This document shows, piece after piece, positions 3,598 to 26,902 of a stretch of 27,341 nt of DNA. A program made the translations under genes and the position numbers. Origin of the DNA: a virus; IMG/VR virus record IMGVR_UViG_3300013010_000052, positions 1-27,341 of that record; one strand, written 5' to 3'. Position 1 is the first letter of the stretch. Every line of letters starts with the position of its first letter. The notes beneath the pieces are model-generated. The model saw nothing but the letters and a program-made list of their open reading frames with translations, was not told where the DNA came from and ran no database searches.

Positions 3598-6237
3598 TTA
3601 TGGTGTGGCGATCGTATATTCATTAGTACCTATGCCTGGTCCTAGGTAAGTGGACATTACTGAACCGTTAGAGTTACCTCCAGAAAGGTACCCTTTTTGG
3701 AATATCGGTGGTGCTACTAATGACCAACCTGGTGTAAAATCATTATTAAAAACAGGCCCAGTTGTAGTATTACCGTTCACAAAAGTTTCTTCGAAACCAC
3801 TCCACTGTAATGTATAGTTAACTCTAAACCATCGCGGGGGTTGGTTTAGTGAGGGAAACTGCGCAGTGGTAACGTTGCCAGTTCCAATAGGGTTACTATA
3901 CCTATTACCTCCATTTTGGATACGCTGTGCATGCTTCATTCTTAAATTAATGTTAGCCATAAGTGGAATGGATGTAGAAGGTGGGGGAGAACTTACTGCG
4001 ATATGACCAGTAACTGAAAGAAGTTCAACATGAAGTCTTTGTCCACTTGCCCAATCCCCCGGAGGAGGAAGTAACCTAAAGGTAAAATCCATCCCGGCAC
4101 TCCCAGGGCTATACAAACCACCGTTTATATAGTTAATATAATTATAAGCGCCCACATTCCAAGGGCCTACCATTATTCTAAGAAATGGGCTAGCAACTTC
4201 TATGTCAGCATTGGACATTACAGTCGCAAAACAGTCTATTCGTCCACCGGATGCTGTTATGTTATCTGTTCCTAAATCGGATATCCCATTCTTTCCACCC
4301 CATATCATTCGGTTACTAACCTTAGTCATATTCTTATCAACCTTAAACTTTTCACCAGCTGGATTATATGTTCCATTCTGAGGAAAGTTTTCATCATCAT
4401 TAAAGAAGATTCCATGTTGTAAAGTGGGTGCAGAAACAGTAGCAAAACCTTTTCCAACAATTACTGATGAGTTAGTAAAATCATGCCAAGCTTCTTGTAT
4501 CACGCCAGGATTTAGGAACGCGTTAGGGTCACCGTTTAGTTTAATTGTTGAACCTGTTGGATAATAAGCTGACCCGGTATCTACGTATATAGTGGAAGTA
4601 GTATGAGGGGTACCTGCTGCAAATCCCTGTAGCAAAAATGCAACTCTACCTGTAATACTTATTAAATCGTCTTGAACACCCGGGCTTGTAGTATTGGTAT
4701 AATTTAATGTAATACTAGCGTTAGTTCGATAATCAGCAGGGGTTGTAAAAGGTCTACCTATTTCAATAGCACCATTAGAGTTTACTGCCCCTAGCCCTAA
4801 TTGTATTTTTTGGCCTGAAAAGTTGGAGTTTATTTTTAAGTTAACACCTGAGTTACCAGTTCCACTTGCAAGTAGCTGCATCTCCGTTTTTGATACAATA
4901 ATACTACCAAATCCTAGACTACCAGGATCAGCAACAATTATATTTGCCTGGTTTTCACTAGTTATATTAGTTGTACCGCTTGCGTGACTATCTATATTAA
5001 TATTACCGGCAACTGCTAACGCTTCATTAGTAGCTATGTTAATATTACCACCACCAACAGATGTAATATCTATAGGATTAACGGTGGTACTAATAAATGC
5101 ATTGCTTGTACTTAGGCCTATGTTGTTAGGATTTACTGTTAATGTTATTGAATCATCACTTAAGAGATTAATATTTGAATTTGCAGCAACTCCAAAAGTA
5201 TCAACGTCAAATCTAACCCCGCCAGTATATACAGGATTTGTGGCTAATATACCAATACCAGGCCCAAACGTAGATTTTGTTTGTGACAGTGCAGCACCTA
5301 AAGTGTTAACTGTAAATGTTGGAACCGTCGAGCCTGTTAAAGCTGCTAATGTAAATGTAACATTGCTATTATCACCAGCAATTTCTAATGCTCCCTTTGT
5401 ACCAGTTTCAAATAACATACCATTCCCTGCTCTATATTGATGCCCTCTTTTTGCTGCATCTACAATATATCCAGTATATTGATTTGAATCACCAACAGTC
5501 CCTGCCTTAGGTACACTAACAGTAAAAGTATCATCAGTTCCTAAGCTTATTGATGATAAGTTATCTAAATTATTTTGTTCATAATGTGAAGATGGAGTTA
5601 AACCACCTCCCATAAACTTTATTGCGCTAGAACCGGCATCACCTTGCCTAATTAGTACTGAAAGAAGTGATGAGTCAAGTGCACCTGCAAGAGCAGATGT
5701 TATTTGAAATTTGTTATTTAAAATCCCAGGATTTGAATCACTTGGGCTAGCTATACCGAATGATGCTACTGGTACCCCTTGGTTTTCCGTTGTTACAAAT
5801 TCATCAGGAGCAGAAAATAAAGAAGGGTAAGAAACATTGTCATTCACCGCGACATAATTTCCAGACCCATCATTACCAAATTGACCCCATCCAACAGCAC
5901 TACCTTGCGGTCCAGTCTGACCAGTTAAATTAATTCCAGTATCAAACCAAGTTAATCCTGTATATTCCCAAACCTGACCATCATCTCGTAAATACTTATC
6001 ATATTGTAATGGTATTATCCCCGGGCCTGGTGGTGTTACATTTGGATTATCAGTACCTTCATACCACTCGGACCCTCTTTCTCCTCTTCCTCCTATTGGG
6101 CCGGATGGTCCTAATGGTCCAGGAGGTCCTACTGGGCCACCACCGTTTAACAGTAATTGATCAAAGTTAAAATTAATTTTATCAACTGCCTGAGAAATAG
6201 TATCAGATGCAAGTAGATCTTGTATGGTAATTGCCAT
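3598..6237 (-). CDS. Tail fibre-like protein with collagen-like repeats (879 aa)
   Basis: A probable host-contacting fibre. Residues 1-30 (MAITIQDLLASDTISQAVDK...) form a short docking module resembling the N-terminus of the 213-residue protein encoded at 17004-17645. Residues 34-54 are seven collagen Gly-X-Y triplets (GPV GPP GPL GPS GPI GGR GER). Then comes a DGQVWEYTGLTWFDTGINLTG motif region (86-106) of the type often found between collagen-like segments in phage fibres, followed by three more triplets (106-114). The long middle (about 115-680) is Asn/Thr/Ser/Gly/Ile-rich with repeating short strands, consistent with a beta-helical or beta-prism shaft. The C-terminal 200 residues contain Trp/Pro/Arg clusters (LQWSGFEETFVNGN), suggesting a globular tip. 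There are no chaperone or sialidase signatures. The start is fixed by the docking module. A/T-rich leader, no Shine-Dalgarno. Confidence 0.75.
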   Translation of the reverse strand: MAITIQDLLASDTISQAVDKINFNFDQLLLNGGGPVGPPGPLGPSGPIGGRGERGSEWYEGTDNPNVTPPGPGIIPLQYDKYLRDDGQVWEYTGLTWFDTGINLTGQTGPQGSAVGWGQFGNDGSGNYVAVNDNVSYPSLFSAPDEFVTTENQGVPVASFGIASPSDSNPGILNNKFQITSALAGALDSSLLSVLIRQGDAGSSAIKFMGGGLTPSSHYEQNNLDNLSSISLGTDDTFTVSVPKAGTVGDSNQYTGYIVDAAKRGHQYRAGNGMLFETGTKGALEIAGDNSNVTFTLAALTGSTVPTFTVNTLGAALSQTKSTFGPGIGILATNPVYTGGVRFDVDTFGVAANSNINLLSDDSITLTVNPNNIGLSTSNAFISTTVNPIDITSVGGGNINIATNEALAVAGNINIDSHASGTTNITSENQANIIVADPGSLGFGSIIVSKTEMQLLASGTGNSGVNLKINSNFSGQKIQLGLGAVNSNGAIEIGRPFTTPADYRTNASITLNYTNTTSPGVQDDLISITGRVAFLLQGFAAGTPHTTSTIYVDTGSAYYPTGSTIKLNGDPNAFLNPGVIQEAWHDFTNSSVIVGKGFATVSAPTLQHGIFFNDDENFPQNGTYNPAGEKFKVDKNMTKVSNRMIWGGKNGISDLGTDNITASGGRIDCFATVMSNADIEVASPFLRIMVGPWNVGAYNYINYINGGLYSPGSAGMDFTFRLLPPPGDWASGQRLHVELLSVTGHIAVSSPPPSTSIPLMANINLRMKHAQRIQNGGNRYSNPIGTGNVTTAQFPSLNQPPRWFRVNYTLQWSGFEETFVNGNTTTGPVFNNDFTPGWSLVAPPIFQKGYLSGGNSNGSVMSTYLGPGIGTNEYTIATP
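6076..6138 (-). repeat. Collagen-like Gly-X-Y coding repeat
   Basis: Seven consecutive GXY triplets are encoded here, with GGTCCT/GGACC-type codon repeats visible on either strand. The segment is locally G/C-richer than its surroundings. Tandem glycine-proline codons like these can expand or contract by slippage, which would change fibre length. Confidence 0.85.
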
Positions 6238-20947: not shown

Positions 20948-21217
20948 TTAATTTATTTTTTGATAGTCTTTAGGAACTCCAAAGTTATAAAATATCCTTA
21001 AGTATTTTACTTTATTAATCCAAAAAGTCATAATAGGTTTTAAATAAAATTCAATAAAACTACCGAGGCGCTTATTTCTAAACATATAATTTGAAAAAGA
21101 ATTCCTCATTAAATTTTCATTATAGTCATTACCTTGGTTTTTTAAAATCCAACCTTCTTCATACGTGGCTTTATAAATGCTAGGCATACCAGTTCTTCTC
21201 TCTGTAAACTTATTCAT
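20948..21217 (-). CDS. Small unknown baseplate-cluster protein between gp6-like and gp7-like genes (89 aa)
   Basis: A basic, aromatic-rich protein beginning MNKFTERRTGMPSIYKATYE. An N-terminal region with WILKNQGNDYNENLMRNSFS is followed by a hydrophobic/aromatic segment (SFIEFYLKPIMTFWINKVKY then LRIFYNFG). The hydrophobic stretch is broken by Lys and Pro and is not a convincing transmembrane helix. It sits exactly between the J/gp6-like and I/gp7-like genes with one-base gaps on both sides, so it is surely cotranslated with them and probably binds one of them. Its leader carries one of the few Shine-Dalgarno-like runs in the window (AAGGA at 21229-21225), which also encodes the end of gp6. 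In size it could replace a small wedge component, but I see no similarity that would justify naming it gp53. Confidence 0.6.
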   Translation of the reverse strand: MNKFTERRTGMPSIYKATYEEGWILKNQGNDYNENLMRNSFSNYMFRNKRLGSFIEFYLKPIMTFWINKVKYLRIFYNFGVPKDYQKIN

Positions 21218-21218
21218 A

Positions 21219-23075
21219 TTATTTTCCTTGTATTGCTTTTAATGTTGGATTATCTTGTAACCTTCCAGTGTTTGTACTTCTTGCATTACGAGAAGTTGCT
21301 ATTGTTGTGCCTCGTGTTCTTTTAAGATCATTAAGCCTAGTTTGTTGAGTTTTATTATAAAGATTATTAGGTATAGTTCCTTTAAAGAATATATTAAGAG
21401 AACTTATAGTATTCTTATTAGGTATTGCTTCATAGAAATTACCGTTTCTATCATCCCAACCCCCTCTAATAATTGCAAGATCATCAGGGCCTATAACAAC
21501 ATCACCAAATTCATCCAAACCTAATTGCGGATCTTCATCTGCCTTAAGCTCTACTTTTTTAGTTTCTATTAATACTTTTTGATCTGTTACTGGATCTGTG
21601 CCATAAACCGGAACTTCATAAAATCCATCAGCTATAGCTTTTTCATTTTCTTCGGATATAAAAAATACATTTACCGAATCTACACCATCTACATTTTCAA
21701 CAATAGAAATTATATCGGATCTTGGAATCCTGTCTCTTCTGTTTATGTATATAAAATATGTACTGAGTTGCTCTCTTATTGCCGCATGTATTTCATCTTT
21801 ATCAAAACCTTCAACGTATCTTATCACAATTTGCAATGCATATCTTTTAATTAAAGGATCATTAATTCTAACCTCAGCAGTAACAATTTGCCTACCGCTT
21901 TTATTTAAAATTTCATAAACCATTTCCTTTTCATCAGGTGTTAATGAAAATTCTTCTACAGGAACACTGAAATAATCGGTATCACTAGTTATTTTTTTAG
22001 CAATATCAGGAATAAGAAATAAGTATACAATATTATCATCGTCTAAATATTGATCATCTTTAGTATTATATGCATCAATAAAAGAAAAATAATCATACTT
22101 ACTTAAATAATAAATATAATTATTAGGATTAGCTAATACGAATGAATTGCTTTGGTAAGGCGCAATTAACCTTGTAAATTGCGGATCTTCACTATCCGAA
22201 CCAAACATAGGGTTTCTGACAATATTTAAAGATAATACTTGGTTTAGGTCAACATCGTTACCTGTTGGGTCAGTTGCAGGATTTTTAAATTTTATATCTA
22301 AATTTTTACCACCAATATTACCAGCAGAACCTCTTGTCTTTACATAGGTAACTTTAATTATAGAACCTAATGCAGGAGGTTTACCAAACTGATTATTCCC
22401 AAAGAAGCAAGTTAAGCCACCATTAACACTGGTTTTAATCATAACGCATTCCTCGCCATTATTCATATCATATAATGAATCAACGTTTTTCCATAGCTTT
22501 CCATCAACGTGTACATCAACCATGTATTGGTCAGTTGGATCTTTTGTGGTTAAATTATAACTTTGTAAAGCCTCCCCAGTTCCAGTAAATGTTTGATCTT
22601 CAATTTCTCCTTGTATTAATTCTACATTAACAAATTGTTTTGTGGTTTTTTCTAACCTAATATAATCACTGTCAAACTTAATAAAATACATTAAACTATT
22701 TTGCCCAATTTCACAAGGTGAATAGTTTAGTATTTGTACATAGTCACCTTCAACTAAACTAGCGGCTGATGTGTTTAACCTTAATCCAATTATTCCTTGT
22801 GCAGATATTCCTCTCGTAGGATCATGGCCAGTCAATCTTGATAACCCATATATAGATTCGATATTTCTGGCTCTACTTATATTTAATTCCGTTGCGACTG
22901 CTTCAATATAAAATAAAATAAGTTCACCAAGATTAGCAACTACTGTAAGTATTTGTCCAAATGGTGACGCAGGCGTAAACACTTCACCAGCCTGGTCATA
23001 TTGGCGCTGTAAATATTGAAATGCGTCAAAAAATAACTCGGTTGCTTTAATTCTGGTTTTACTAAAAAATGACAT
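21219..23075 (-). CDS. Baseplate wedge protein, gp6/J-like (618 aa)
   Basis: This is the central ring-forming wedge protein of contractile tails (T4 gp6, P2 gpJ). Evidence: an N-terminal helical region (1-90) with ASPFGQILTVVANLGELILF, like the helical entry of J proteins; then the J hallmark at residues 222-256, LTCFFGNNQFGKPPALGSII leading to KVTYVKTRGSAGNIGG. In the family this reads as a G-D/N-x-x-F-G-x-x-P-x-x-G-S element followed by x-V-x-Y and a G-x-x-G-N segment. The C-terminal arm at 405-473 (RYALQIVIRYVEGFDKDEIH ... IPRSDIISIVENVDGVDSVN) matches the J pattern of helix, then strand with GVxxV. The length is close to T4 gp6 (660). The last 145 residues, Asp/Pro-rich then Arg/Thr/Asn-rich, are an extension. 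It follows gp25-like by 19 bases, as W precedes J in P2. Confidence 0.88.
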   Translation of the reverse strand: MSFFSKTRIKATELFFDAFQYLQRQYDQAGEVFTPASPFGQILTVVANLGELILFYIEAVATELNISRARNIESIYGLSRLTGHDPTRGISAQGIIGLRLNTSAASLVEGDYVQILNYSPCEIGQNSLMYFIKFDSDYIRLEKTTKQFVNVELIQGEIEDQTFTGTGEALQSYNLTTKDPTDQYMVDVHVDGKLWKNVDSLYDMNNGEECVMIKTSVNGGLTCFFGNNQFGKPPALGSIIKVTYVKTRGSAGNIGGKNLDIKFKNPATDPTGNDVDLNQVLSLNIVRNPMFGSDSEDPQFTRLIAPYQSNSFVLANPNNYIYYLSKYDYFSFIDAYNTKDDQYLDDDNIVYLFLIPDIAKKITSDTDYFSVPVEEFSLTPDEKEMVYEILNKSGRQIVTAEVRINDPLIKRYALQIVIRYVEGFDKDEIHAAIREQLSTYFIYINRRDRIPRSDIISIVENVDGVDSVNVFFISEENEKAIADGFYEVPVYGTDPVTDQKVLIETKKVELKADEDPQLGLDEFGDVVIGPDDLAIIRGGWDDRNGNFYEAIPNKNTISSLNIFFKGTIPNNLYNKTQQTRLNDLKRTRGTTIATSRNARSTNTGRLQDNPTLKAIQGK

Positions 23076-23094: not shown

Positions 23095-23460
23095 TTAAAA
23101 TAGAGCCCCTATGACTCTTTCTTCATTTACAAAAATATCTACTAAACAACCGTTTCTTTCCATTGTGCTATAAAACTGTACTCTTACATCTATACCAAAT
23201 TGACTACTGCTGCTGTTTAAGCAATATGTTTGAATCTGACTACTTACCTTCTGTGAAATAACAGATTCATTTAATACTAAAGAAAAAATAAGATCATCTA
23301 AATTGCATCCCATATTAGGAGATCCTAGTACATCACCCTGCCGAGTAAACAAACAATTCTCTATCTTAAGAATAAGTTGTTGTAATTGATCTGTCACCTC
23401 GATTACATCATCGTTGTACTTTGGTGCATCTATGTCTCTGCTGTATATTTCCTTTATCAT
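23095..23460 (-). CDS. Baseplate wedge protein, gp25/P2 gpW-like (121 aa)
   Basis: Structural wedge protein of the gp25/GPW family, which joins gp6 and helps nucleate the sheath. It is not an active lysozyme, despite the old family label. The length (121) is normal (T4 gp25 is 132). Residues 18-36 form the first amphipathic helix (VIEVTDQLQQLILKIENCLF). The core motif follows at 39-59, TRQGDVLGSPNMGCNLDDLI, equivalent to the family pattern of a turn with G-x-x-x-x-x-P-x-x-G-x-x-L-x-x-L. Residues 63-80 form the second helix, and 87-112 the C-terminal strands (FGIDVRVQFYSTMERN then CLVDIFVN). The family EPR triplet that enters the core wedge bundle appears here only as a D-V-R at 91-93, with Arg kept. 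Its ATG is separated by one base from a perfect 8-bp inverted repeat (see 23462-23488). Confidence 0.85.
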   Translation of the reverse strand: MIKEIYSRDIDAPKYNDDVIEVTDQLQQLILKIENCLFTRQGDVLGSPNMGCNLDDLIFSLVLNESVISQKVSSQIQTYCLNSSSSQFGIDVRVQFYSTMERNGCLVDIFVNEERVIGALF

Positions 23461-23517: not shown

Positions 23518-24384
23518 TTATCCAGTAAAAAAATAATCAACACCTTCATCACCTTTTATCTCTTCTACTATTCTATCTACTTCTTCTCTACCTTCTCCAG
23601 ATATTAAATCATAATTAATAGTAATGTTACCAGGTAGATTAAATTGAAATGTACCTACAATTCTAGCTAATTGGATTTTAGCCATACCACAACAATATCT
23701 TATGAACGCTTCATCTTGAAAAAGATCACAATCAGGAATAGTATTATAAACTTGGAAAATACATGCACCTCTTTTAGGTAACTCTCCCATAAATCTAAAC
23801 TTCTTAGTTAGCCTATTATAATTATATGAAATCTGTGCTTGTAAAACTTGTCTTGCTGTATCTATAAATTTAGAATTAATTACATAATACATTAAATCCT
23901 CGGAACCAATACCTGCACCATATACATCAGAGTATATAAATTTGTCTAATGAAAAGTCTACATCACCTGCTGAAAATGAGTTATCACCAAAGCCACCGTC
24001 TTCACCAGAGAATCCATTTATTTGGAATACATTATTAACAGCCCAGACGGTTGGTGGCATTTTTACAACACCCCTAGGATTATTAACATCCTTTTCAGTT
24101 AGCTTATTAGGTGTAGCACTAGTTTGGTCATTATGGCTTATACCTTGTCTAAATGCAGATTCACCCCACGCAGTAGCAGGTAATGCAATAAACATTTCTT
24201 CAACACTATCTTCATATATTTTATAAAAATAATCTTTAGCTCTACTTATGATATGAGCAAGCTCTTTTTTAGGCACCGTAAAAGGTATTTGGCAACCTAC
24301 GGTTAAGTCGTCATTAATTTCCTTTATGAGAGCATCCAAACATTCTTGTGAATCTGGGTTACACCAACTTTTATTCCTAGCCAT
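23518..24384 (-). CDS. Probable neck/head-tail connector-region structural protein (288 aa)
   Basis: I do not recognise a named family, though the pattern recalls conserved structural proteins of large myoviruses. The N-terminus has MARNKSWCNPDSQECLDALI, then VPKKELAHIISRAKDYFYKI (37-56) as an amphipathic helix. The middle (75-165) is Gly/Asn/Ser-rich loop. Residues 170-260 are mixed: YNYNRLTKKFRFMGELPKRG, then the conserved-looking IPDCDLFQDEAFIRYCCGMA and GTFQFNLPGNITINYDL, followed by a C-terminal amphipathic helix (EGREEVDRIVEEIKGDEGVD). The Cys pair at 231-232 is notable in a Cys-poor region. It lies 57 bases ahead of the gp25-like gene, at the edge of the baseplate module, the place where neck or tail-completion genes are often found. 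A neck or tail-terminator role is inferred from position. Confidence 0.5.
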   Translation of the reverse strand: MARNKSWCNPDSQECLDALIKEINDDLTVGCQIPFTVPKKELAHIISRAKDYFYKIYEDSVEEMFIALPATAWGESAFRQGISHNDQTSATPNKLTEKDVNNPRGVVKMPPTVWAVNNVFQINGFSGEDGGFGDNSFSAGDVDFSLDKFIYSDVYGAGIGSEDLMYYVINSKFIDTARQVLQAQISYNYNRLTKKFRFMGELPKRGACIFQVYNTIPDCDLFQDEAFIRYCCGMAKIQLARIVGTFQFNLPGNITINYDLISGEGREEVDRIVEEIKGDEGVDYFFTG

Positions 24385-24388
24385 ATCT

Positions 24389-25687
24389 TTACTTAATTTT
24401 TTCTATTTCTATTACTTCGGTGTTATCACCAAACCTAGCGAGCTTTGTTGCTCTACCTTGTCTAAAAATACCACCAACCATTTCTCCACTAAACACTCCT
24501 CTTTTTCCAAATACATAACTATCCTCACATATTACATTTCTACTAACATATGATTCTTCTATTTTACAGTCCTCTGCTACGGTCGCGCCAAACAAGTTAG
24601 ATTCAAATACTGACGTATTCTTAAGGTCACAACCAAAGATATCACAATTAACTATGTTTCCTTGAATGACTGAATCAACAATATCAACACCGTTTATTTC
24701 AAAGCATCGCATTAACTTAGCATCTTTAATCTGTATTCTCCCGGTATCACTATCATAATTAATTAAACCTTCATTCATATCAGCCCTAGTAATTAAATCA
24801 AAAATCTTTTCTCTAATCTTAGGGTAATACATTTCAATGATTTGATCATATGTTTGGAGATCAACCATTAAATGAACCTTTGGGAATTTTTCTTTAAATG
24901 AAGAATATGTTCGATAAGATTCAATAACAGTTTTATGCTTTTCTAAAATCTTATCTAAGACCTTTAAGTCAGATTCATTATATTTTGGATTAACTAAAGT
25001 TTCATATAATGAAGTAATAAAATGTTCGGTCATTGAAAGTATTGTAGAATACCTCTTTTCATAATCAGCACCACCAAGATATCTAAATTCAATATAGCCC
25101 TTTTGTAGCTTTTCAAAATTAATTCCATAATACTTCTCTTTGACAAACATATAGTTTTTCCAAAGATTTTTTTCTGGGGAAGGTTGAGTCATACCACTCA
25201 ACGGTACAATAAACTTTATAGATTTTGCATAAACAGAATCTCTTCTGTTTGGAAAGGCTTCATATACTTTGTTTTCATCAAAGTTAAGTACAAATTTACC
25301 TACGTCTAATTTAGACATATTAACAATAGGTCCTAGTTTCTTTCCATCAAATGCAATATTAATATGAATAGAACATCTTTCATTAGTTTTTCCATTTTCT
25401 CTAATCCATTTTAAAGTTTTAGCCATAATTAGCTTAGCCTCAACAAATGGCATTGGCCCGGTTACTAATTCAATCATACCAGTACCACCAGAGTTATCTG
25501 GTTCTAATTTAAAAATATCTTCGGTAGGGGTAAATTCACTGTGCGCCTTTTCTTCTACTCTGATTGCTTTGTTTAAAGTTTGTGCTAAGTCATCTTTTGT
25601 AGCGTCAAGGTTTTCATTTGAAAAGAACTCAAATTCAAATCCTATCTTTGAAGAATGTATAGCGTTAAGTTGTTCGTTAGAATACAT
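24389..25687 (-). CDS. Amidoligase-family (COOH-NH2 ligase) protein with C-terminal pentapeptide-repeat region (432 aa)
   Basis: Residues 1-300 carry the ordered signatures of the amidoligase branch of the glutamine-synthetase-like COOH-NH2 ligases: KIGFEFEFF (14-22, metal/ATP-binding Glu residues), LEPDNS (61-66), IELVTGPM (72-79), CSIHINIAF (105-113, the C-G-x-H-x-H-like strand) and GYIEFRYLGG (197-206, the E-F-R strand). Such enzymes join a carboxylate to an amine using ATP. The target here is unknown. A helical segment (215-300) links to residues about 330-392, where five-residue steps can be read (GNIVN, CDIFG, CDLKN, TSVFE, SNLFG, ATVAE and on), a pentapeptide-repeat type right-handed helix of about 12 imperfect repeats. 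The C-terminus is a short Gly/Arg-rich tail. It is 4 bases from the next gene, and its ATG has a weak AGGA upstream. Presence inside a virion gene block suggests that it modifies a virion, wall or host protein. Confidence 0.75.
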   Translation of the reverse strand: MYSNEQLNAIHSSKIGFEFEFFSNENLDATKDDLAQTLNKAIRVEEKAHSEFTPTEDIFKLEPDNSGGTGMIELVTGPMPFVEAKLIMAKTLKWIRENGKTNERCSIHINIAFDGKKLGPIVNMSKLDVGKFVLNFDENKVYEAFPNRRDSVYAKSIKFIVPLSGMTQPSPEKNLWKNYMFVKEKYYGINFEKLQKGYIEFRYLGGADYEKRYSTILSMTEHFITSLYETLVNPKYNESDLKVLDKILEKHKTVIESYRTYSSFKEKFPKVHLMVDLQTYDQIIEMYYPKIREKIFDLITRADMNEGLINYDSDTGRIQIKDAKLMRCFEINGVDIVDSVIQGNIVNCDIFGCDLKNTSVFESNLFGATVAEDCKIEESYVSRNVICEDSYVFGKRGVFSGEMVGGIFRQGRATKLARFGDNTEVIEIEKIK

Positions 25688-25729: not shown

Positions 25730-26902
25730 TTATACTAAGTTCATTGTAATCTTGCGATCACTAATATTTACACTACCAATTTTAACATTAATAGTATCAC
25801 CCTTAGTAAGCTCAGTATCTTTTAATTTAGTTTTATGAATAAGACCACTTATACCTTTTTCCAATTCTACAAATGCACCATACTTAGTTACTTTTGTAAC
25901 CTTCCCTTCAGTTACCATCATAGGTTTGTATTTTTGGTCTGCGCCATCCCATAAGTCAATCTTAGGTCCTGCTTGGCTTAAAATAATTTTTCTATCTGAT
26001 ATAATTTCCTTTGTCCAGAAATTAATCTCATCACCTGGTTTAATACTCCTATTATCAAATAGCTTTAGTGTAGATTCATCTAATTCATTTTTAGGAATAA
26101 GACCAGTTAAGGATTCATTAAATTCGGCAAATATACCAAATTTAGTTGTACCTGTAACAAAACCAGTAATATGTTCTTTTATATTTTCTCTTAGGTTTTC
26201 TACAGCAGAAGGAATCATGGTTCTAAGATATTCTCTATGGGAAACGACAATAGTTTGTTTTTCATTAGAATAAGTTATAGGCATAACGATAATTTCTTTA
26301 CCTACTATAGCTTCAAAATTATGTAGCTTATTTAAACCGGCTAAGGAACCTGGCATAAAGCATTGTACTCCACCAACCTCAACCCAGTAGCCACCATGTA
26401 TTAATTCTTTAACTTTACCAGTAAATCCTATACCTCTATTTCCAATAGCGTTATAAATTTCATTACGCTTAACTTCATCTAATGCATCGCTAATAGAAGC
26501 ATAAAGGGTTCCAAATTTAGAATATTTAACTTTTATGTCAACACTCATTCCAATTTCTAGTTGATCAACAATTTCCTTAGGCTCTTTATTTAAAATACAG
26601 ACAGCAGTATTCTTTCTTGATATATCTACTAAAGCCTCTACTTTAACTTCAGTTTCTTCCCCGTCAATAATATGAGTTTCTTTTTTGATAGCAACTATCT
26701 CACCTTGTGTTATGTAATTGTTATTTTCTTCGGAAAGAGTTAATCTATTTAATTCATCATCTGATAAATCATACATCGACATTGCTTCTGCTGCATACAT
26801 TTCAGTACACATTAACTTAGTTCCTTTAGGTACTTTAACTTTAACTACTTTAGTGTCAAATGGATCATCACTTAATTGGATTGTGATTTCTTGTTCTGTC
26901 AT
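25730..26902 (-). CDS. S1-domain RNA-binding protein, ribosomal protein bS1-like (390 aa)
   Basis: Contains about four S1 (OB-fold) domains: a degenerate one at 62-140, then 157-222 (GFTGKVKELIHGGYWVEVGG, FMPGSLAG), 242-310 (HITGFVTGTTKFGIFAEFNE, LTGLIPKNEL, ISDRKIILS) and 329-390 (VTEGKVTKVTKYGAFVELEK, ISGLIHKTKL, ISDRKITMNLV). The last two are canonical, with the G-x-V-x-x-V/T-x-x-G-x-F-V/A-E core and the D-R-K-I-x-x-S/N ending. Cellular bS1 of many bacteria has six domains, and it binds single-stranded mRNA ahead of the start to bring it to the 30S subunit. This protein lacks an evident full N-terminal ribosome-docking helix, though residues 1-60 are acidic and could dock differently. A phage copy could recruit phage mRNA with A-rich leaders or protect RNA. 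The function is inferred; the fold is clear. Confidence 0.85.
   Translation of the reverse strand: MTEQEITIQLSDDPFDTKVVKVKVPKGTKLMCTEMYAAEAMSMYDLSDDELNRLTLSEENNNYITQGEIVAIKKETHIIDGEETEVKVEALVDISRKNTAVCILNKEPKEIVDQLEIGMSVDIKVKYSKFGTLYASISDALDEVKRNEIYNAIGNRGIGFTGKVKELIHGGYWVEVGGVQCFMPGSLAGLNKLHNFEAIVGKEIIVMPITYSNEKQTIVVSHREYLRTMIPSAVENLRENIKEHITGFVTGTTKFGIFAEFNESLTGLIPKNELDESTLKLFDNRSIKPGDEINFWTKEIISDRKIILSQAGPKIDLWDGADQKYKPMMVTEGKVTKVTKYGAFVELEKGISGLIHKTKLKDTELTKGDTINVKIGSVNISDRKITMNLV

Follow-up and report, generated by a model that had tools for sequence, protein, structure and literature searches.

The window analysed here is the whole 27,341-nucleotide stretch of IMG/VR virus record IMGVR_UViG_3300013010_000052. 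Its minus strand carries a gene at 24389-25687, encoding a protein of 432 amino acids from an ATG start. The initial annotation read this gene as an amidoligase fused to a pentapeptide-repeat helix; the observation is confirmed. Three parts can be distinguished, all on the minus strand: a predicted glutamine synthetase (GS)-fold Amidoligase_2 domain (approximately residues 1-235; 24983-25687), a middle region that is helical in the AlphaFold2 (AF2) secondary structure (residues 236-316; 24740-24982), and a right-handed β-solenoid with pentapeptide spacing (residues ~317-413; 24449-24739). The AF2 model of the whole protein, built from 55 input sequences, has a pLDDT of 91.3 and a pTM of 0.86, and the two-domain anatomy is well supported. 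The gene is under strong purifying selection (dN/dS ~0.06); across 43 close relatives, dN/dS is 0.062 in the enzyme domain, 0.081 in the middle region and 0.045 in the solenoid. The pairing of enzyme and solenoid is real and ancient, and is strictly retained among relatives.

The neighbouring minus-strand genes encode virion proteins and an S1-domain protein. Upstream lies a conserved gene for a 390-residue protein with several S1 domains (25730-26902; PF00575, E 2.3e-21), which ends 42 bases from the amidoligase gene. Downstream, after 4 bases, begins a conserved neck or head-tail adaptor gene (288 residues, 23518-24384; PHROG 211 'head-tail adaptor Ad2', E 3.5e-11); both neighbours are thus as first described, an S1-like gene directly before and a connector gene 4 bases away. 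A gp25-like (23095-23460; PHROG 43, E 4e-4) and a gp6-like baseplate wedge gene (21219-23075; PHROG 219, E 8e-25) follow. Between the latter and the next large gene is an 89-residue gene (20948-21217), whose cluster has 115 members from related loci. Elsewhere in the window (3598-6237) is an 879-residue probable tail-fibre protein with a collagen-like stretch, GPVGPPGPLGPSGPIGGRGERG, near its N-terminus.

Relatives of the amidoligase-solenoid protein numbered 106 in a first IMG/VR scan and at least 487 by profile scan. Eight phage records match, including genomes of 462-735 kb (among them genomes of about 634, 636, 642 and 735 kb) and Agrobacterium phage Atu_ph07. The 735 kb genome (LR756501) has a second, partial amidoligase-like match at 380912-381370 (E 1.6e-4). 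Al-Shayeb et al. place their largest genomes in the Mahaphage clade and predict Bacteroidetes as the hosts (PMC7162821); the window phage belongs with huge phages related to the 462-735 kb phages, whose hosts are probably Bacteroidetes. A scan of 84,980 species genomes gave a single relative, on a contig binned with a Bacteroidetes MAG; this contig is probably viral. No paper describing an amidoligase paired with a pentapeptide solenoid was found in a search that lay outside most subscription journals. The initial annotation's statement that no such phage system has been described therefore stands to that extent, but the pairing is no isolated case: a large phage lineage carries the gene constantly.

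Sequence profiles do not place the window protein directly. Pfam, NCBIfam and PADLOC scans assign it no family, PHROGs returns only weak or uninformative families, and a sequence-profile search of the PDB gives no significant match. A DUF4422 match was at chance level (E 0.012) and was rejected. The window protein does not match PF12224 (Amidoligase_2), in contrast to its homologues: a permissive threshold brings in 15 of 22 members of the family, and against a cut-off of 22 bits the full-length relative on the Bacteroidetes-binned contig scores 39.1 and the Atu_ph07 relative 30.2. Profile-profile alignment (hhalign) of residues 1-235 with 11 phage amidoligases gives a probability of 97.3% (E 2e-11), while the C-terminal half, used as a control against the same amidoligases, gives 0.2%. 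Bacterial PF12224 proteins from Bacteroidetes form a separate subfamily by motif and were excluded from the profile. GS structures are the best structural matches of the AF2 model (Z 10-11.6; 4bax, Z 11.6 over 183 residues at 3.4 A), with a Foldseek E value of 5e-5, and the closest predicted viral structures are mostly labelled 'Amidoligase enzyme'. An Amidoligase_2-type GS fold is thus a well-supported prediction for the N-terminal domain, and the enzyme family named in the initial annotation is borne out. The window protein and GS share the catalytic-barrel fold (Z ~11); they differ in that identity to GS is only ~12% and the alignment begins past the GS N-terminal domain.

The five motifs quoted in the initial annotation are all found, in the order given there. 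They are GFEFEF (residues 16-21; 25625-25642), with the proposed metal ligands E18 and E20; LEPDNS (residues 61-66; 25490-25507), with E62, D64 and S66; IELVTGP (residues 72-78; 25454-25474), with E73; CSIHINI (residues 105-111; 25355-25375), with H108 and N110; and YIEFR (residues 198-202; 25082-25096), with E200 and R202. Among 163 full-length members the named residues of the first, third and last motifs are invariant, as are D64 and S66; E62 is kept in 161, and position 108 is His in 140 and Gln in 23. GFEFEF corresponds by position to the G-x-E-x-E of annotated phage amidoligases. The hhalign alignment pairs motifs two through last with the phage amidoligase sequences WKLVPDSS, FELVSP, CGMHVHI and SIEFR. 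The metal and phosphate motifs are similar in form to those of GS, whose metal and phosphate ligands correspond to the GxExE motif, to the second acidic group, to the His and to the paired residues of E-x-R.

All five motifs are kept in relatives down to ~30% identity. In 58 diverged representatives (<80% identity to each other), 13 motif-type residues show no change: G16, E18, E20, D64, S66, E73, K131, E138, R148, K185, N190, E200 and R202. E62 changes once. Family-wide, 29 positions are invariant in the 163 full-length members; 26 of these fall in the N-terminal domain, and the only ones in the solenoid are K375 and R409.

The C-terminal part is also well predicted. Residues 300-432 modelled alone give a β-solenoid with strands mostly five residues apart (pLDDT 95.3), as in the whole-protein model. 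The five-residue hydrophobic periodicity of the C-terminus exceeds that of shuffled sequence (p ~0.006), while the N-terminal domain has none. The pentapeptide helix of the initial annotation is therefore real, but its estimate of about 12 steps was too low; there are ~19 pentapeptides, with strands from ~317 to 413. Pentapeptide repeat protein (PRP) structures match the solenoid at Z 8-9.6, and the top structural matches include pentapeptide proteins as well as pentapeptide solenoids made by design. The top-ranked match is a bacterial self-associating protein (Z 10.3), and pectate lyase scores 9.0; the comparison gives about equal scores to pentapeptide solenoids and other right-handed β-helices and does not separate them sharply. 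Several relatives match Pentapeptide_4, all below the Pfam cut-off (family best 26.8 bits against 38).

The pentapeptide repeat proteins AlbG, QnrB1, EfsQnr, MfpA and NP275/276 are likewise right-handed solenoids built in five-residue steps. Unlike these, the window solenoid is below the Pfam cut-offs and is fused to an enzyme. Qnr and MfpA are DNA-mimic gyrase inhibitors with a strongly acidic surface, while residues 317-432 are near neutral by residue count (15 K+R against 18 D+E); because the charge is nearly balanced, a DNA-mimic role, suggested in the initial annotation, is ill suited to this solenoid and is not favoured. That functional reading is otherwise supported in part. Family membership, the GS fold with a solenoid fused to it, the setting among virion genes and the conservation of the motifs in homologues are borne out; targeting of the enzyme by the helix, a virion or host protein as its substrate and the making of crosslinks are its conjectural elements.

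Several readings of the gene's function are open. The best of them, tentative and somewhat short of probable, is that the protein is an ATP/Mg-dependent carboxylate-amine ligase, docked through its solenoid, and that while virions are being assembled it modifies a protein of the tail or neck by making an amide or isopeptide bond. The GS-fold domain would carry out the ligation, as argued from the anatomy and the invariant residues. The enzyme would be expressed late, together with the tail, baseplate and neck genes; the solenoid would provide a docking or oligomerisation surface; and the bond would be made on or between tail or neck proteins. Two observations count against this reading: the lack of a PF12224 match in the window protein itself, and the replacement of the motif His by Gln, with Asn to Ser or Gly, in 11 of the 58 representatives.

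This replacement is the main basis for a rather unlikely alternative, in which catalysis has been lost and the GS-like domain is a binding platform. The protein would then be a structural or chaperone-like assembly factor, holding tail or neck proteins through the solenoid and the GS-like face. H108 and N110 occur as HxN in 47 of the 58 representatives and as Q-F-[GS] in the other 11. On the tree, H108 to Gln needs two changes, one of them on a strongly supported clade of ten rows; the larger of these two independent lineages still occupies the same operon slot. A scaffold would also fit the gene's constant presence in a structural operon, and a solenoid under constraint as strong as that of the enzyme domain. 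The other motif residues are retained, which weakens the case: the acidic, Lys, Asn and Arg positions of the motifs are almost all invariant, the Gln lineages included, and this goes beyond the needs of a pure scaffold. Metal binding is still possible with Gln. Of the Glu, His and Arg residues on which the initial annotation staked its enzyme call, Glu and Arg are kept, and only His gives way in the two lineages.

The change from His-x-Asn to Gln-Phe-Ser/Gly always occurs as a block (loci L058, L064, L065, L067, L077, L080, L135, L146, L147, L148 and L117). Gln-lineage proteins at L067, L065, L077 and L080 have an additional Lys/Gly-rich tail, KGKGKG..., beyond the solenoid.

The gene occupies a fixed slot within a tail-baseplate operon of huge contractile-tailed phages, in the order S1-like, amidoligase, neck, gp25, gp6. 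This is preceded by LysM-like, hub-like and gp5-like OB spike genes and a variable gene; the hub-like and LysM-like assignments come from weak matches and inspection. The long order from LysM to gp6 is retained in other branches as well as in that of the window. In a 462 kb phage (L083, 4430-5635), a TnpB-like ORF, identified by eye, lies between hub genes. A search with the neck gene found the amidoligase at all 78 loci for which upstream sequence exists, and two more loci end at a contig edge; since the scan covered the best 80 matches, it speaks for relatives with 50-95% neck identity. In 51 of the 58 representatives the amidoligase has a conserved gene of the tail or neck operon no more than 6 kb away, which is not a tally of independent events because the representatives share ancestry; the remaining seven, which count against the virion-assembly reading, have none within that distance. 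In the 600-700 kb group, the amidoligase gene has been relocated and the S1 gene is distant. Genes of the baseplate operon nevertheless adjoin it in ~14 representatives, and a few still have it within about 4 kb of neck or gp25.

The S1 neighbour is the main ground for a second alternative, that the translation apparatus is modified. RimK is an ATP-grasp ligase that adds glutamates to ribosomal protein S6; by analogy, the amidoligase might act on the adjacent S1-domain phage protein or on host ribosomal proteins. The S1-like gene directly precedes the amidoligase in nearly all relatives of the window type, and S1-like proteins occur in the same huge genomes, as reported for huge phages (PMC7162821). 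The separation of the two genes in the largest genomes, where many representatives keep the amidoligase close to tail or neck genes, weakens this reading. Lak phages also have an S1 relative, yet in the one Lak genome examined (Lak-B5), which has both the neck gene and the S1 relative, the amidoligase was not detectable. A translation-linked substrate is improbable. The Lak-B5 genome also counts against the virion-assembly ligase, since it indicates that related virions can be built without the amidoligase. In its neck gene (259623-260348) TAG occurs in frame seven times, which would fit a recoding of TAG in this phage.

Known phage enzymes of the PF12224 family (DBA55455 of Porphyromonas phages, and those of Pseudomonas phage TC6 and Arthrobacter phage Salgado) also have a GS-like fold and the ordered motifs G-x-E-x-E, D.S, E-L-V, H-x-[HN] and E-F-R. 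They are 266-446 residues long, and no solenoid was noticed among those examined, in contrast to the window protein. Most of the phage amidoligases examined are found in cassettes with a COOH-NH2 ligase, ATP-grasp enzyme, glutamine amidotransferase or gamma-glutamyl cyclotransferase, and peptidoglycan modification has been proposed for the podovirus cassettes (PMC5498523; PMC10580990). Membership of the same enzyme family allows an analogous reading here, in which peptidoglycan peptides or another cell-surface target would be modified for superinfection exclusion. We consider this doubtful, no better than the translation-linked reading. The window amidoligase is surrounded by S1, neck, gp25, gp6 and hub genes rather than by cassette partners, and it is placed among tail genes and not in an early region. 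ATP-grasp, COOH-NH2 ligase, amidotransferase and cyclotransferase genes were not recognised among the annotated conserved neighbours. A search of five huge or jumbo relatives, in which no positive control gave a signal, found no COOH-NH2 ligase; a cyclotransferase is present in two of the five, not adjacent to the amidoligase.

Two further relatives were compared. AUZ94978 of Atu_ph07 (UniProt 'Amidoligase enzyme') is homologous in the enzyme domain only (26% identity); its C-terminus differs from that of the window protein and has no pentapeptide match, and its gene adjoins portal and head genes. Counted from the portal gp198, it is about gp196, of which PMC6102473 makes no mention in its main text. 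BFVD A0A6J5PQ40, from an uncultured Caudovirales phage, matches the structure over its full length (TM 0.90, 25% identity); it is uncharacterised and so provides no function to transfer.

The constant position of the amidoligase among genes for tail and neck, partly surviving rearrangement and lacking cassette partners, favours a virion-linked substrate over peptidoglycan and hence the virion-assembly ligase, although operon position can reflect timing only. A more specific form of this reading, in which the solenoid recruits the amidoligase to lock or tag tail or neck proteins covalently and so stabilises very large contractile virions, is unlikely as it stands; if true, such ATP-driven stabilisation would be an undescribed strategy. 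Phage amidoligases have so far been explained as modifiers of the cell wall or of metabolites. That an abundant lineage of huge phages keeps such an enzyme fixed in its tail operon, under strong constraint, points to covalent modification of proteins as virions assemble, or to the fold having taken on a new use.

In Porphyromonas phage BK068099 (L166, 8923-9876), a classical amidoligase gene is flanked by those for an adaptor and a neck protein; this is a second morphogenesis-linked amidoligase.
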